Both the position numbers and the translations under genes were made by a program. Source: an uncultured Pseudomonadales bacterium (GTDB lineage: Bacteria > Pseudomonadota > Gammaproteobacteria > Pseudomonadales > Azotimanducaceae). From it: a stretch of 64,000 nt of DNA. Positions 1,105-8,324 of this stretch are shown piece by piece. How positions within the stretch are numbered: the stretch's first letter is position 1; each line of letters starts with the position of its first letter. The notes under the pieces are model-generated. The model was not told the origin of the DNA and ran no database searches. It was given only the letters and a program-made list of their open reading frames with translations. The stretch is taken from NCBI GenBank assembly GCA_937775265.1, contig CALKBV010000002.1:182538-246537 (forward strand), written 5' to 3'.

Positions 1105-1401
1105 AGCATATCTGAAATGGGCTTCTTCTATATTTCCCCAGCCAGATTCAAGGAGAGCCGTCCAATCCTCCTACGCCAACAGAAAATTACGCTGGCTAAT
1201 CGGCCATCACCAGGTCAGCCAATCACCACAAACAACAAAAAACTTGGTAGCGTTTAACCACTGCAGTCATACGGCTACACTCTTCCATAAAACAAGCAGG
1301 CAACCGATCTGATTCGATACTCAGACTTTCGATCGAAAAGCCCTGTTATAATTCCTATTCTCCGTAAGTCCAAACAAGTCTCGACACGGGTCAATATGCA
1401 A

Positions 1402-1440
1402 TGCAATATATATATGTCTTTAAGTCTGTAATATATTGCA
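1402..1440. repeat. AT-rich inverted repeat upstream of tRNA-Phe
   Basis: Perfect 10-bp arms TGCAATATAT (1402-1411) and ATATATTGCA (1431-1440), separated by 19 nt. It lies about 105 bp before the tRNA-Phe gene, in a plausible promoter region. Confidence 0.6.
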
Positions 1441-1544
1441 CGGTGTTACATATATTGAATTTCTGGAGGTGAACGCATTGTATTAGTCAATTTGATCAAG
1501 CAGCGTGAGCGGAGAGACCTAGACCGCTGCATTAACCTTATTAT

Positions 1545-1620
1545 GGCCGTATAGCTCAGTCGGTAGAGCAGGGGATTGAAAATCCCCGTGTCGGTGGTTC
1601 GATTCCACCTTTGGCCACCA
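1545..1620 (+). tRNA. tRNA-Phe (GAA)
   Basis: A 76-nt cloverleaf with encoded CCA. The D-arm region is TAGCTCAGTCGGTAGAGCA, the anticodon stem-loop is GGGGA-TTGAAAA-TCCCC (anticodon GAA), and the T arm is GGTGG-TTCGATT-CCACC. The acceptor stem GGCCGTA/TTTGGCC has a T-T mismatch at pair 6-67 and a G-T wobble at 5-68, weaker than usual. It lies 18 nt upstream of the HTH-NGN gene on the same strand, so the two may share a transcript. The minus ORF 1446-1763 is its shadow. Confidence 0.93.
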
Positions 1621-1638: not shown

Positions 1639-2124
1639 ATGAAAAACAAGCAATTGAAGATGGCTCGTATGGAAGTTGATATGACACAGGAAGGTTTAGC
1701 CCAAGTAGTAGGCGTAACTCGCCAGACCATCGGGCTGATCGAATCCGGTACATATAATCCCACGCTAAATGTTTGCGTGTCGATCTGCTACGCGCTCGAG
1801 AAGACTCTAGATGAGTTGTTCTGGGTTAACTCCGAAACAGAGCTCATGTCACAGCTACCGACAAGATGGTACGCCATTGAGGTCAATCCGGGGCATGAAG
1901 ATGCTGTCAAGAGCCGTATCGAGACCGCAGTGATGGCCCGGAACTACCAACACATGATTAAGAAAGTAGAAATCCCTGAAAGGATAAACGACGAAGCCTT
2001 TAGCAATTGTGTGATGGTGAAGATGGTAATGGCAAATAAGAGCTGGGTCATCATTAGGGGCATTGAAGGCGTGAAGCAACGCGGACAGGTTCTTGAGAAG
2101 GGCAAATACTATCGAAGCAGTTAG
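1639..2124 (+). CDS. XRE-family HTH protein fused to a NusG N-terminal (NGN)-like domain
   Basis: 161 residues in two parts. Residues 1-66 are a complete XRE-type helix-turn-helix of the small stand-alone class ('DMTQEGLAQVVGVTRQTIG', ending 'LDELFW'), a sequence-specific DNA-binding module. Residues 75-150 resemble the NusG NGN domain: 'RWY' at 76-78, 'PGHEDAV' near 84-90, 'VEIPE' at 110-114 and 'VKMVMANKSWVIIR' at 127-140, which parallel RWYVV, SGFEGRV, VMVPTE and VQMVMNDASWHLVR of E. coli NusG. The loop holding NusG's FFPGY motif is reduced to about seven residues, and there is no KOW domain. GGTGG precedes the ATG. The HTH call is firm; the NGN call rests on alignment by eye. Inference: a promoter-targeted factor touching RNA polymerase. 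I know of no named family with this architecture. Confidence 0.85.
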   Translation: MKNKQLKMARMEVDMTQEGLAQVVGVTRQTIGLIESGTYNPTLNVCVSICYALEKTLDELFWVNSETELMSQLPTRWYAIEVNPGHEDAVKSRIETAVMARNYQHMIKKVEIPERINDEAFSNCVMVKMVMANKSWVIIRGIEGVKQRGQVLEKGKYYRSS

Positions 2125-2199
2125 TTCGCAGCGGTGCAGTATGTGTCACTTTTCCCCTATGTAACTGCGAGCACTGGTGGCGATGCTTCGCGCGAAGAA

Positions 2200-2386
2200 C
2201 GGCCGAAAACCGGTCTAGTACCAAACAGTGGTGATGCCAGGGGCCTGCACATTTCCGCGCAGAATACTTAAAAGTGATCGCGTACCCGTCGATGTGATCG
2301 CTGGCACCAGCCTCAGCTCTTTCGTCGATGGCCTTTGCGCCAGCGGCATGTCAGTAACCGAAATTGAAAACCGCCGATCACCATGA
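2200..2386 (+). pseudogene. patatin-like phospholipase remnant, frameshifted
   Basis: One frame reads 'RPKTGLVPNSGDARGLHI' (2200-2253), matching the oxyanion-hole start of patatin/RssA proteins (RPKIGLVLSGGGARGLAHI). The next frame then reads 'VPVDVIAGTSLSSFVDGL' and 'CASGMSVTEIEN' (2282-2371), matching the GxSxG-type nucleophile block (VDVIAGTSMGAxVGGLYASGM). The two are joined only by a frameshift, the nucleophile motif reads GTS as in intact enzymes, and the frame ends at TGA 2384-2386 after some 60 codons. A decayed gene fragment; the ORF track shows only a minus-strand shadow here. Confidence 0.75.
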
Positions 2387-2399
2387 AATCCTTGGCTAT

Positions 2400-3173
2400 T
2401 CATACTTCTGACTCAGTACGATTACCCCTAAAATTGGTGCATGCTTCACAATCCGGATTCTGCGGCAGCTTGAGTTTTCGCCAATCCATGTAGCGCGCAT
2501 CGAACGTTAAAAGGTATCCTGCGAGCGACTCGCCGATTCCAACGATCAACTTCAGCGTCTCCAGCGCCTGCAAGGTGCCAATAGCACCGACAACTGGAGC
2601 GGCGATGCCGGTTTCAGAGCAGTTCAACGCACCCTCAGAAGCGCTTTGGTAGAGGCAGCGATAGCAAGGCATATCCTTGCTAACGGCATCGACCACCATT
2701 AACTGTCCCTCCAGTCGAACAGCTGCTCCAGATACCAGGGTTGTCTGCTGCCTAAGGCAGGCGTCGTTGATCGCGAAGCGGACCTCAAAGTTGTCGGTAC
2801 AGTCGACGACAATGTCCGCTAGAGCAACTTCATCTTCAAGGGTCGCCAGGCTCATTCTTTGCTGAACAAGTCGAATCTCTATATCCGGGTTTACCTCATG
2901 GAGTTGGCGTTTCGCCGACACGGTCTTGGGTTCCCCAATACTCGACGTCGTGTGAATAATCTGTCGCTGCAGGTTGGAAAGGTCAACCAAATCGAAGTCT
3001 GCCAGAGTTAGTGACCCTACGCCTGAAGCCGCCAGGTAAAGAGCTACGGGACTGCCAAGGCCGCCAAGACCAACAATGAGAACCCGCGCGGCGAGTAACT
3101 TTTCCTGACCTTCGATGTCGATGTCTGGAAGCATGATATGCCTGGCATACCTTAGTAACTGATCATCGTTCAA
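2400..3173 (-). CDS. moeB: MoeB/ThiF/HesA-family adenylyltransferase
   Basis: 257 residues, full length for the family. It adenylates the C-terminal Gly-Gly of a ubiquitin-like sulfur carrier (MoaD or ThiS) in the cytoplasm. Seen: nucleotide-binding 'GLGGLGS' at 35-41, 'CTDNFEVRF' after the Rossmann core, zinc ligands 'CYRC' and the C-terminal 'CEAC'. The 'NCSETGIAAPVVG' block resembles ThiF, whose cysteine there makes the acyl-persulfide, as much as MoeB, so the carrier is not certain. The start overlaps the end of prmC by 11 nt, as in the Pseudomonas moeB-prmC-prfA-hemA order. Confidence 0.88.
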   Translation of the reverse strand: MNDDQLLRYARHIMLPDIDIEGQEKLLAARVLIVGLGGLGSPVALYLAASGVGSLTLADFDLVDLSNLQRQIIHTTSSIGEPKTVSAKRQLHEVNPDIEIRLVQQRMSLATLEDEVALADIVVDCTDNFEVRFAINDACLRQQTTLVSGAAVRLEGQLMVVDAVSKDMPCYRCLYQSASEGALNCSETGIAAPVVGAIGTLQALETLKLIVGIGESLAGYLLTFDARYMDWRKLKLPQNPDCEACTNFRGNRTESEV

Positions 3174-3999
3174 GGTCGTGGCTCCTTGCTATTACGGCGC
3201 GTGGCTGTCCCTGGAGATCCCTGAACCCTTGCACCTCGGTTAAACCAGCATTTACCAGCAGCTGAATGACCGGTTCCTGTTGATCATAACCGTGTTCAAG
3301 CAGAATGTGTCCCCCTGGAACCAGATGCTCATGGCAGTTGTTGATAATTTGCCTGATGCAATCAAGCCCGTCATCCCCGGCATTAAGTGCTCCCGCAGGT
3401 TCAAACTTTAATGCCTGAAGGTGTGGATCTGTATTCCTGATATAAGGTGGGTTACTGATAATAAGGTCGAACCGACCTTCAATATTAGTGAACCAGGAGC
3501 CCGCAAGAAAATTGACGTTCGCGAGTGTCCCTGCATTTTTTTGTGCGATAGCCAGGGTACTTTTACTGATGTCAGTGCCGAGTATCTGCCAGCCCGGTCT
3601 TTCCGCAGCAAGGCTCACAGCCAGGGCGCCCGTGCCCGTTCCTAAATCCACTACTTTGATTGATTGCTGATCAAACCGAGCCAGGGTAATTTCCATCAGA
3701 AGTTCTGTGTCTGGTCGTGGGATGAGCGTATCACGGGTCACGCAAAAATCCCGCTGCCAAAAAGATTGAAACCCCCTGATGTAGGCCACGGGTTCACCGA
3801 TATGCCTTCGCGCGAATAGCGCTTGAATCCGTATCTGATCAACACTGCAAACGGCTTCTTCAGCGTGTGCGATCAGCCATTCTCGCGGCCTGGCCAGAAC
3901 TTCTCCAATCAACAGATAACTATCTAGTAGGGGGGTGTCGGATATATCGCCCAGCTGCTCTTTGCCCTGGCTGGCGAGCCCTCCGATCGTCTCAGTCAT
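3163..3999 (-). CDS. prmC: peptide chain release factor N5-glutamine methyltransferase
   Basis: Methylates the glutamine of the GGQ motif in RF1 and RF2 using S-adenosylmethionine. The SAM-binding motif '[14 protein letters not shown]' and catalytic 'SNPPY' are present, with 'IPRPDTE' before them as in all PrmC. The ORF track starts at 4041, but the ATG at 3999 gives 278 residues, matches the family N-terminus and overlaps the prfA stop by 8 nt, so translation is probably coupled to prfA, whose product is its substrate. Confidence 0.95.
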
Positions 4000-5083
4000 C
4001 TTCCTGGCCAAGGGAACGAAGTTGGTCTGCCTGATGCTCAATAATCAGCTGATCAACGATGGGATCCAATTCACCCGTCATTACCTGGGGTAAACGGTGA
4101 ATGGTCAGGTTGATTCGATGATCGGTGACTCTGCCGTCAGGAAAATTGTAAGTGCGGATCTTTTCTGATCGATCCCCGCTTCCCACCAGGCTACGTCTTG
4201 TTTCCGCTTGCTCGTCGGACTGCTCGGTTTGCGCCTTGTCCATCAGCTTGGCCTGAAGCAGACTCATCGCCCGCGCCTTATTCTTGTGCTGAGAACGTTC
4301 GTCCTGACATTCGACCACGATACCCGTAGGTAAATGGGTCAGCCTGACGGCAGAATCAGTTTTGTTGACGTGCTGCCCGCCCGCTCCCGACGCGCGATAA
4401 GTATCGACTCTTAAATCGTTCTTCGCGATTTCAATCACTTCAATATCATCGAGCTCAGGCAGGACCGCAACTGTACAAGCTGATGTGTGCACACGGCCCT
4501 GGGATTCGGTCTGCGGGACTCGCTGTACCCGGTGCGCACCGGATTCGAATTTCATCTTGCCGAAAGCATTTTTGCCATCGACCCTGGCGATGACTTCCTT
4601 GTAGCCGCCATGATCACCATGGCGTTCGTTTAGTATTTCCATCTTCCAGTTTTGTGTTTCTGCAAAACGGGTGTACATGCGAAACAAATCACCGGCAAAT
4701 ATCGCAGCTTCATCGCCACCAGTTCCTGCCCGTATCTCAAGGAAGACGTTGTTCGCATCGTGCGGGTCTTTTGGAAGAAGGAGTTTCTGTAGTCTGCTGT
4801 TGAGAATCTCGAGAGAGTCCTCCAGCTCACCAATCTCCATTTCTGCCATTTCCCGGATATCATTGTCGGGATCTTTTGACATCACCTGTGCGTCTTCGAG
4901 TTCTGAAGACTGTGATTCAAACTGCCTGAAACAAATGACCACAGGTTCGATATCCGCATACTCTTTCGAATAACTTCGAAACCGGTTTTGATCGGTGATC
5001 ACATCGGCGTCACTAAGCAGCGCTCCCAACTCTTCGTATCGGTCGAGTAGCATATCCAGTTTAAACTTCAGGGACTTATTCAA
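3992..5083 (-). CDS. prfA: peptide chain release factor 1
   Basis: Reads UAA and UAG stops in the ribosomal A site. The start is placed at TTG 5083: '[12 protein letters not shown]' aligns with E. coli MKPSIVAKLEAL, giving 363 residues (E. coli 360); the longer ORF-track start has no family support. '[15 protein letters not shown]' carries the GGQ catalytic motif. The stop-recognition tripeptide reads PQT ('[10 protein letters not shown]'), where E. coli has PAT; the threonine is kept. The TTG lies inside the end of hemA (8-nt overlap), so expression is tied to hemA. No strong ribosome-binding site is seen. Confidence 0.96.
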
Positions 5084-6339
5084 CGTTGTCGTCCAGGTTG
5101 TACAGGGTAGAAATGATGGCCACGAGGTCTTCCGCGTCGTCATCGATGGCAGCTTTAAGCTGCACGCTCGGGATGTGTATTATCTTGTTGGTCAGCTGAT
5201 TAGCAAGCTGTGTGAGCACTTCGGTTGGGTCAGCACCTTTCTGAAGCCTTGCGACGGCTCGCTCGAGCTCCTCGGTCTTGATGTTGTTGTGGTGGTCGCG
5301 AAACCTGACCAGCTTTTCTTCTGCCCCTTTCGTTTGGTGCCGGGTGCGATAACTGGAAATTTCTTCGGTCAGAATAGTTTCTGCATCCCTCGCCGCTTCC
5401 TGACGACTATTAATGTTGGTATCCACGATCTGTTGCAGGTCATCGACGCTATAAAGGTAGATGTCACGCAACTCACTGACTTCCGGTTCTATGTCCCTCG
5501 GTACCGCCAAATCAACCATCAGGATGGGCCGATGCTTTCTGGATTTAAGGGCACGCTCTACGGTTCCTTTGCCCAGGATTGGCAACGGCGCGGCCGTTGA
5601 GGCGATGACGATGTCCGTCTCAGGTAGTTTTGTAGGAATGCTTTGAAGGTCGATTGCTGAGCCGCCAAGTTCATGCGCCAGTCGCCGGGCATTCTTAAGT
5701 GTGCGATTGGCCACCGTAATGTGTTTAACGCCGGCACTGACGAGATGCCGGCCTACCAGCCCAGAGGTTTCCCCGGCGCCAATAATAAGAATGTTGCAGT
5801 CCGACAGATCTGAGAACAATTGTTGCGCCAGCGTGACCGACGTAGAAGCAACAGAAACAGAGCTCTCGCCAATAGCAGTTTCCGTGCGCACTTTTTTGGC
5901 CACTCGAAAGCTGGTCTGTGACAGATGATCAAGTTCACCACCTAGCGTGCCGAGCTGGCGGGCCTGGTCGAAACAGTCTTTAAATTGGCCTAGAATCTGT
6001 GGTTCACCGACGACCATGGAATCCAGCCCACTGGCAACGCGCATGGCATGAAGAGCCGCTTCGTTGTCAGTTAGAATATAGATGCTGTGCTCTCAGGTCT
6101 GCAGGATCAATTTGGTGATAATCAGCCAGCCAGCGGGTGATTCTGAGAGCCTGGATGTTGTCTCCGGAAGCAATAATCTCAGTTCGGTTGCAGGTAGACA
6201 ATATCGCGACTTCCTGCAATCCAGCCTGCGTTGAGATGTCGTTAAGCGCAACTTCAAGCTGGTCTGGAGTAAATGCGACCTTTTCCCTGAGTTCTACAGG
6301 CGCGGAGGTGTGATTTATGCCGATGATGAGCAGATTCAT
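5076..6339 (-). CDS. hemA: glutamyl-tRNA reductase, split by a +1 frame change
   Basis: First enzyme of C5-pathway heme synthesis: reduces Glu-tRNA to glutamate-1-semialdehyde with NADPH. The first 90 residues (6339-6070, '[15 protein letters not shown]', catalytic-cysteine motif 'STCNRTE') end at TGA 6067-6069. The other 330 residues continue in the next frame from GAC at 6068 ('[17 protein letters not shown]', NADPH site 'IGAGETSGL'). Joined, they give 420 residues (E. coli 418) with nothing else missing, so this is one gene with one base too many or two too few. Assembly error, recent mutation and +1 recoding at TGA-C are all possible. It is divergent from the TPR gene and overlaps prfA. 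Confidence 0.9.
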
Positions 6340-6514: not shown

Positions 6515-8324
6515 GTGAATGTGAATGCCAGTAACAAAAAGGTGAATAACATCAGACGATCTTCATTTCTTCGGACCCTGCCTGAGCCACGCCGCTTCTG
6601 TCTGCTTTCTATCCTGGTGGCGCTGCTTGCCGGGTGTTCCACCGCGCCAGTCGAACCAGAACCGGTTAGTACACCGGAGCCAACAGTGGCAAAACCTGCG
6701 CCACCAAAACCGCGGCCAGACCCGGATGATTATCCGGTTGCTCCCTTTCCAGGCGATTCTTTGTACGAGTTACTGGTGGCGGAAGTCGCAGGGTATCGCT
6801 CCCGATACGACATTGCCCTGGATAAATACGTGGATGCGGTGGTCGAAACACGTGACCCGGGCGTCGCTGCCCGTGCAACCGGGCTTGCGTTGTATTTGAA
6901 GAAATACGCCGAGGCGCTCGAGACGGCCCTCATCTGGGCGGAGGTAGACCCTGAAAATGTTACCGCGCGCCGCCACGCCGTGGATCTACTGCTACGTGCG
7001 GGTAAACTTGAACCGGCGATTGGACATATGGAAGCGGTCAAGCAACTGGGCGGTAAGGCGAGCTTTGATGTGTTCGCCTACCGAGCTGTAGACTTGGCGC
7101 CGAAGCAACGAGCGGCCGTTCTGGCGGCGATCACAGAGATGCTGGACCGGCACCCGGGAGACGAACAGCTTTTGTTTTCAAGAGCGGTGTTACTGGAACA
7201 CAGTGGTCAATTACCTGAAGCCTTGGCCATTGCTGAAGAACTGCTAACCGTCTCTGAAAAACCGAATGTCATCGTTCTGAAGACAAGGATTCTGGGTGCA
7301 ATGCAGCGCGAGGATGATGCGATCGCCTATCTCACAGGAATAGTTACCGTTCCGCAGCCCGACCGGAGACTGCAACTTCTTCTGGCCAGGATGTTGTTCG
7401 AGGAGGGAGACCTTGAAGCAGCGAAAGTTCAGTACAACAATGCGCTTAATGTGTCACCCAATGACGGCGATGTCCTGTTTGCGCTGGCATTGATTGCTCT
7501 TGAGCAGGGAGATGATTTGCAGGCACAGGAACATTTGGAGCGGATGGTGCGATGGAACCGGCGCTCAGGTGAAGCGCATTACTATTTAGGAGGGATTGCC
7601 GAAAGGCGTTCAGACACCACGGCAGCCCTTCAGGAATACGTCCAGGCAGGGGAAGGATATGAGTTCATTCCGGCCCAGGCGAGGATTGCATCTTTACTTG
7701 CTAATGATGGCCTCTGGGAAGAGGCGAGAGCTCATCTCGACAACTTGCGTACCCAGAAGCCCGAGCACAGGCAACAGCTTATTCTCATCGAAGCGCAGCT
7801 ACTGGCTGACCGGGGCCAGGAACAGGAAGCCTCTGGACTTTCTTGGCGCAATCCTCCAACAGGAACCAGAAAACGTCGAGTTGCTCTACTACAGGGCGAT
7901 GACAGGTCAGAGATTCGGGCAGTTGGACATCCTGGAAGCGGATTTGCGCAGAGTCATTGAGCTGGACCCGGATAACGCAGATGCACTGAATGCGCTGGGT
8001 TACACATTGACCGACCAGACCAACCGGCATGAAGAAGCACTGGAATTGATTGAAAAGGCGTTAACAATCAAACCTGATGAGGCTGCTTTCATCGATAGCC
8101 TGGGTTGGGTGCAATACCGCCTCAACAATTTCGAAATGGCACTGACCTATCTTCGGCGAGCCTATGAGATGTTTCGAAACGATGAAATCGCAGCTCATCT
8201 TGGCGAAGTACTATGGGTAGCTGGCGATAAAAGCGAAGCGAATCAGATCTGGGAGGAAGCACTGGAGCTTGCTCCTGAAAGCGAGATCCTCAAGAACGTC
8301 ATTCAACGCTTTCGAGCAGAATAG
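6515..8324 (+). CDS. TPR-repeat outer-membrane lipoprotein, split by a frame change
   Basis: Start GTG at 6515; hydrophobic segment and lipobox 'LLAGC' near residues 38-42, a Pro/Glu-rich linker, then many tetratricopeptide repeats ('GDVLFALALIALEQGD', 'ADALNALGYTLTD'). The first frame continues to 7960 but makes nonsense after about 7831; true sequence resumes in the next frame at 7833 ('LDFLGAILQQEPENVE') and ends at 8324. Joined length is about 602 residues, close to P. aeruginosa PA4667, the TPR protein between hemA and lolB. The role is unknown; TPRs suggest protein binding at the envelope. The ORF 7596-8324 is its 3' part, not a separate gene. Confidence 0.85.

Follow-up and report, generated by a model that had tools for sequence, protein, structure and literature searches.

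The stretch of DNA analyzed here, a window of 64 kb, encodes on its plus strand (1639–2124) a protein of 161 residues that a preliminary description had read as an XRE-type helix-turn-helix (HTH) domain followed in the same frame by the NGN domain of NusG. This raises the question of whether such a fusion is a genuine and maintained gene and, if so, what a regulator of this kind would do with an NGN domain. The frame is open from ATG to TAG over 161 codons, and profile searches recovered both domains within it. The Pfam HTH_3 model matches residues 6–60 (1654–1818, plus strand; 45 bits against a cut-off of 23, E=1.1e-11), and this half also matches the structure of CylR2 (PDB 1utx; 5.4e-7), marking it as a CylR2-like XRE domain. 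Residues 76–146 (1864–2076, plus strand) score 36.6 bits with the NusG model PF02357, whose cut-off is 22.2 (E=6.5e-9), a margin of 14 bits; this supplies the significant match to NusG families that had been set as a test of the reading. Scanned by itself, the C-terminal half reaches 38.1 bits. The NCBIfam nusG equivalog model TIGR00922 recognizes the same stretch at 6e-8, its 32.7 bits lying far below the cut-off of 135.7. With the C-terminal half as query, phmmer recovered NusG chains almost exclusively from the PDB (best 1.1e-5); tblastn matched many NusGs (down to 1e-8). The concurrence of Pfam, NCBIfam and PDB matches shows that the likeness to NusG is due to homology rather than chance.

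Structure prediction agrees with this. A full-length AlphaFold2 model computed from two sequences was uninformative (pLDDT 38); a model of the NGN half by itself, based on an alignment of 13 sequences that included phage NusG-like NGN domains from IMG/VR, was of moderate confidence (pLDDT 66, pTM 0.53) and displays the strand-helix-strand-strand-helix-strand order expected for an NGN domain. In Foldseek searches of the PDB with this model, the 20 best matches were all NusG structures (E from 2.2e-4, probability 0.99–1.00, TM 0.50–0.59), with Spt5 appearing lower down, and nothing significant was retrieved from the viral library. The NGN α/β fold anticipated in the preliminary description is thus predicted, at an E of 2.2e-4 and a probability of 1.00 but a TM of only 0.56 for a model with pLDDT 66; since NusG relatives entered the alignment, the model supports the sequence result without being independent of it. 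One could argue from the moderate quality of the model, and from the bias towards NGN that the phage NusG-like sequences bring to it, that the C-terminal half is some other ferredoxin-like domain or resembles NGN by chance. Such an interpretation is largely refuted, and in our view extremely improbable, given the profile match from sequence only and the tblastn and phmmer matches to NusGs cited above.

Alignment with NusGs revealed which parts of the domain are kept and which are lost. Among the invariant NusG columns, RWY, G85, E87, V90, P113, F121, M129, W136 and V145 are retained, and the VMVKMVMxNKSW block is very NusG-like. The FFPGY motif is replaced by AFSNC (AFGNC in the orthologue described below), the 12-residue hairpin stretch after the second strand is absent, the GFIGG strand, the last NGN helix, the linker and the KOW domain are likewise missing, and less of the hydrophobic patch is left. 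The Pfam scan of the protein detected no KOW domain and no remnant of one is discernible downstream in any frame; the earlier claim that both KOW and the FFPGY loop are missing is therefore upheld. Where NusG has its last NGN helix, linker and KOW, the protein ends in a C-terminal tail specific to the fusion (QRGQVLEKGKYYRSS, residues 147–161; 2077–2121, plus strand), 14 of whose 15 residues are the same in the orthologue. The hydrophobic residue M126 is probably the counterpart of RfaH F56 and of the corresponding leucine of NusG, provided that F56 is correctly placed in the alignment.

Searches with exact peptide patterns over about 85,000 species genomes, a procedure that reaches close relatives only, recovered a single orthologue with 86% amino-acid identity over its full length, encoded at 3441–3926 of a contig from another genus of the family (JABIZD010000188.1, hereinafter L002; taken as identical to G051:C43). 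As the same fusion is encoded in this independent assembly, it is not an assembly artefact. Profile searches found the fusion in 2 of the 207 genomes of the family, namely the present one and L002. No others turned up in samples of the order (392 genomes), the class (369) and the phylum (299), or in phages, plasmids or viral contigs. The search for XRE-NGN proteins in other genomes proposed in the preliminary description thus yielded one orthologue and nothing in the remainder of the family or the wider samples; more distant fusions may exist, since the pattern scan covers close relatives, the profile, built from two sequences, is narrow, and the profile searches stayed within the phylum. A third match in the family (G017) was discarded as an ordinary NusG without an HTH: it is CPR-like by eye and lies at the end of a probably chimeric contig (G017:C208), near a tRNA-Arg and other genes. 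Consistent with the preliminary description, we found no named family with the XRE-NGN architecture, nor any account of such a fusion in the open-access literature.

Both halves of the protein look foreign to the genome, the HTH being nearer to Firmicutes sequences and the NGN half having just 22% identity to the housekeeping NusG of this genome. Specifically, the HTH half is 57–65% identical to stand-alone Firmicutes regulators over 62–66 residues, including their LDELFW end, and at most 51% identical, among the matches listed, to regulators of its own family. With an HTH half of Firmicutes type, the donor may belong outside the Pseudomonadota. The housekeeping NusG is present in its usual place in a secE-nusG-rplK-rplA cluster; an origin of the NGN half from this gene was considered and is unsupported, given that low identity and the higher scores of cyanobacterial and Bacillus NusGs compared to the E. 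coli NusG.

Comparison of the two copies indicates that the gene has been under purifying selection. They differ at 48 of 483 coding bases (9.9%), with 12, 12 and 24 differences at codon positions 1, 2 and 3 (dN 0.070; dS 0.26). When 48 changes were placed at random in the coding sequence as a neutral expectation, 34.1 ± 2.8 amino-acid changes resulted, as against the 22 observed (P=5e-5), and the deficit is seen in each half (HTH: P=0.0012; NGN: P=0.0066); 85% of the sequences simulated with as many random changes gained a stop. The non-coding DNA shared by the two loci is more divergent than the coding sequence, at 14 of 61 positions (23%) in the 3′ flank and about 22% in the upstream block described below. 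As judged from these substitution patterns, the fusion is maintained as a whole, with both halves intact.

The shared DNA forms a compact unit. By blastn, the window matches L002 over an upstream block (1363–1464, plus strand, 78% identity; L002 3316–3412) and again over 1621–2185 (88%), giving a unit of about 0.7 kb that comprises a dyad-bearing block, the ORF and the 61 bp that follow it (2125–2185, plus strand). The neighboring genes of the two copies are unrelated. The 3′ boundary can be placed at 2186–2193, because the match to L002 stops at 2185 and homology of the native moeB flank to a related genome, G170, restarts at 2193 (96%). From 2193 to 4200 the window is 96–97% identical to G170 and G179 (L122 and L123), which have nothing corresponding to the left of 2193 and 2316, respectively; this marks the region downstream of moeB as a variable site in the genus. 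Elsewhere in the window, hemA (glutamyl-tRNA reductase; 5076–6339, minus strand) is split over two frames near 6045–6067, probably through an indel introduced in assembly; the assembly is made up of few contigs but is only 77% complete. A gene for a TPR-type protein (6515–8324, plus strand) likewise consists of two overlapping frames (6515–7960 and 7596–8324), which suggests a frameshift, real or from assembly.

The two parts of the unit are separated here by 1468–1620 (plus strand), a duplicated portion of the native tRNA-Phe locus that includes the leader and the tRNA and lacks the promoter. It is 93% identical to the native region (G000:C9:1-145, on contig C9), with similar sequences in G179 and G170. 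The tRNA-Phe copy predicted by ARAGORN at 1545–1620 (plus strand) has a damaged acceptor stem: the native GGCCGGA/TCCGGCC has become GGCCGTA/TTTGGCC, with a G5-U68 pair and a U6-U67 mismatch. A promoter-like TTGACT-17-TTTAAT lies further upstream of the native gene, outside the duplicated part. In L002, 10 bp separate the upstream block from the ORF block, with no tRNA between them; an insertion here, as opposed to a loss from L002, is inferred because the present genome has another copy of the tRNA. Thus, the fusion does lie next to a tRNA-Phe, as originally described, but the adjacency is incidental, and we rejected the tRNA as an integration site or functional part of the unit, since it is absent from L002 and is here a damaged, promoterless duplicate. 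Additional 3′ parts of tRNA-Phe (about positions 30–76), as expected of att sites, occur in several related genomes (G179, G170, G155, G160 and G136); elements integrating at tRNA-Phe seem to be common in the group.

Despite differences in the intervening DNA, both genomes have kept the upstream block in front of the ORF. This block contains the best candidate for an operator, a 41-bp dyad at 1401–1441 (centered on base 1421) with two 20-bp half-sites of the form AAGwCTnnAATATATTGCAc. Within it lies an exact 10-bp inverted repeat (1402–1411/1431–1440), and a search of the 64 kb with the right half-site, allowing up to 3 mismatches, found only the two arms of the dyad (0.08 expected). The dyad score of the block is 9, compared to 4.95 ± 1.2 in shuffled sequences, and is reached by 1% of the shuffles; that of the L002 counterpart is reached by 6%. 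In the present genome, the tRNA insertion separates dyad and ORF by about 200 bp. Of the two palindromes put forward earlier as operators, the one at 1402–1440 thereby gains support, lying in the conserved block with its half-site nowhere else in the window, and the one at 1058–1104 loses it, being outside that block and present in a single copy in the window. The latter is an inverted repeat of 20 bp (TAACCGAACAGTATCCTATA), nearly perfect, whose arms are separated by 7 bases. The conserved block has no conspicuous promoter, a sigma-70 scan giving no more sites there than in shuffles, and no targets beyond the fusion's own gene are visible.

What would such a protein do? The reading we favor, tentatively and with somewhat less than even confidence, is that of a horizontally acquired one-gene autoregulator with its HTH on the dyad and its tethered NGN domain touching RNA polymerase. 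An HTH dimer would bind the dyad and regulate the gene's own promoter, and the NGN domain would reach the polymerase at or near that promoter via the β′ clamp helices. Different NGN domains resemble one another in how they contact the clamp helices and the gate loop, and the site they occupy is analogous to the one used by initiation factors (PMC7819879). The fusion might then act at initiation or early elongation, competing for the site used by initiation factors and NusG. Competition with sigma or NusG is one way in which a tethered NGN could work; another is to retain the polymerase close to the operator. The KOW domain of NusG recruits Rho or the ribosome, and, having none, the fusion would not be expected to travel along genes as NusG does. 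RfaH depends on F56 (leucine in NusG) to bind RNA polymerase (PMC7593976), and the fusion has a hydrophobic residue, probably M126, at that position. With FFPGY, the GFIGG strand and the last helix gone and the hydrophobic patch reduced, however, contact with the polymerase is doubtful and may have been lost. The proposal that a repressor sitting on its operator employs a domain derived from NusG to retain or obstruct RNA polymerase at one particular promoter is accordingly one that we advance with a little more hesitation; no description of a comparable DNA-tethered mode was found for any NusG-family protein.

Indeed, because FFPGY is lost, a polymerase-independent use of the fold is almost as likely: an XRE repressor would have co-opted NGN simply as a domain for protein interaction or dimerization, an explanation that we consider possible, if with slightly greater reserve than either of the foregoing proposals. 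It would account for the disappearance of the FFPGY loop and GFIGG residues from a domain whose core (RWY, G, E, V, P, F, M, W, V) stays, and CylR2-like regulators are not known to work through any RNA polymerase-binding domain. It is less easily reconciled with the purifying selection on the NGN half itself and with the strongly NusG-like VMVKMVMxNKSW block. The very patchy distribution, in 2 of 207 family genomes, and the damaged tRNA copy between dyad and ORF would also suit a selfish or stray cargo gene that represses only its own promoter and is heading for loss; this we deem unlikely, as the frame and both domains have survived a synonymous divergence of about 0.25. If the favored autoregulator reading is true, the polymerase-binding NGN module is detachable and can be aimed at a chosen DNA site. 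The locus offers a natural NGN domain without KOW on a predicted sequence-specific DNA-binding domain, kept by selection and small enough for direct testing.

In comparison to known systems, the fusion shares with NusG (TIGR00922; PF02357 plus KOW) the NGN fold, the RWY start and the IPE and VxMVMxxxSW blocks; unlike NusG, it lacks KOW, FFPGY, the 12-residue hairpin and the last helix, adds an XRE HTH in front and lies outside the secE-nusG-rplK operon. Like RfaH, LoaP and UpxY, it is an NGN protein encoded in addition to the housekeeping NusG, patchy in its distribution and horizontally moved; however, RfaH and other specialized NusG paralogues keep both NGN and KOW. Moreover, whereas RfaH is recruited by ops DNA exposed on the elongating polymerase (PMC7593976), the fusion carries a separate domain for binding double-stranded DNA in front of its NGN. 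That HTH half resembles the CylR2-like XRE regulators (PDB 1utx and the stand-alone Firmicutes HTH proteins), which end at about 66–70 residues and whose genes may neighbor a partner gene; in the fusion, the NGN domain follows directly. By the features that define those proteins, then, the fusion is neither a NusG nor an RfaH but an XRE regulator with a truncated NGN domain.
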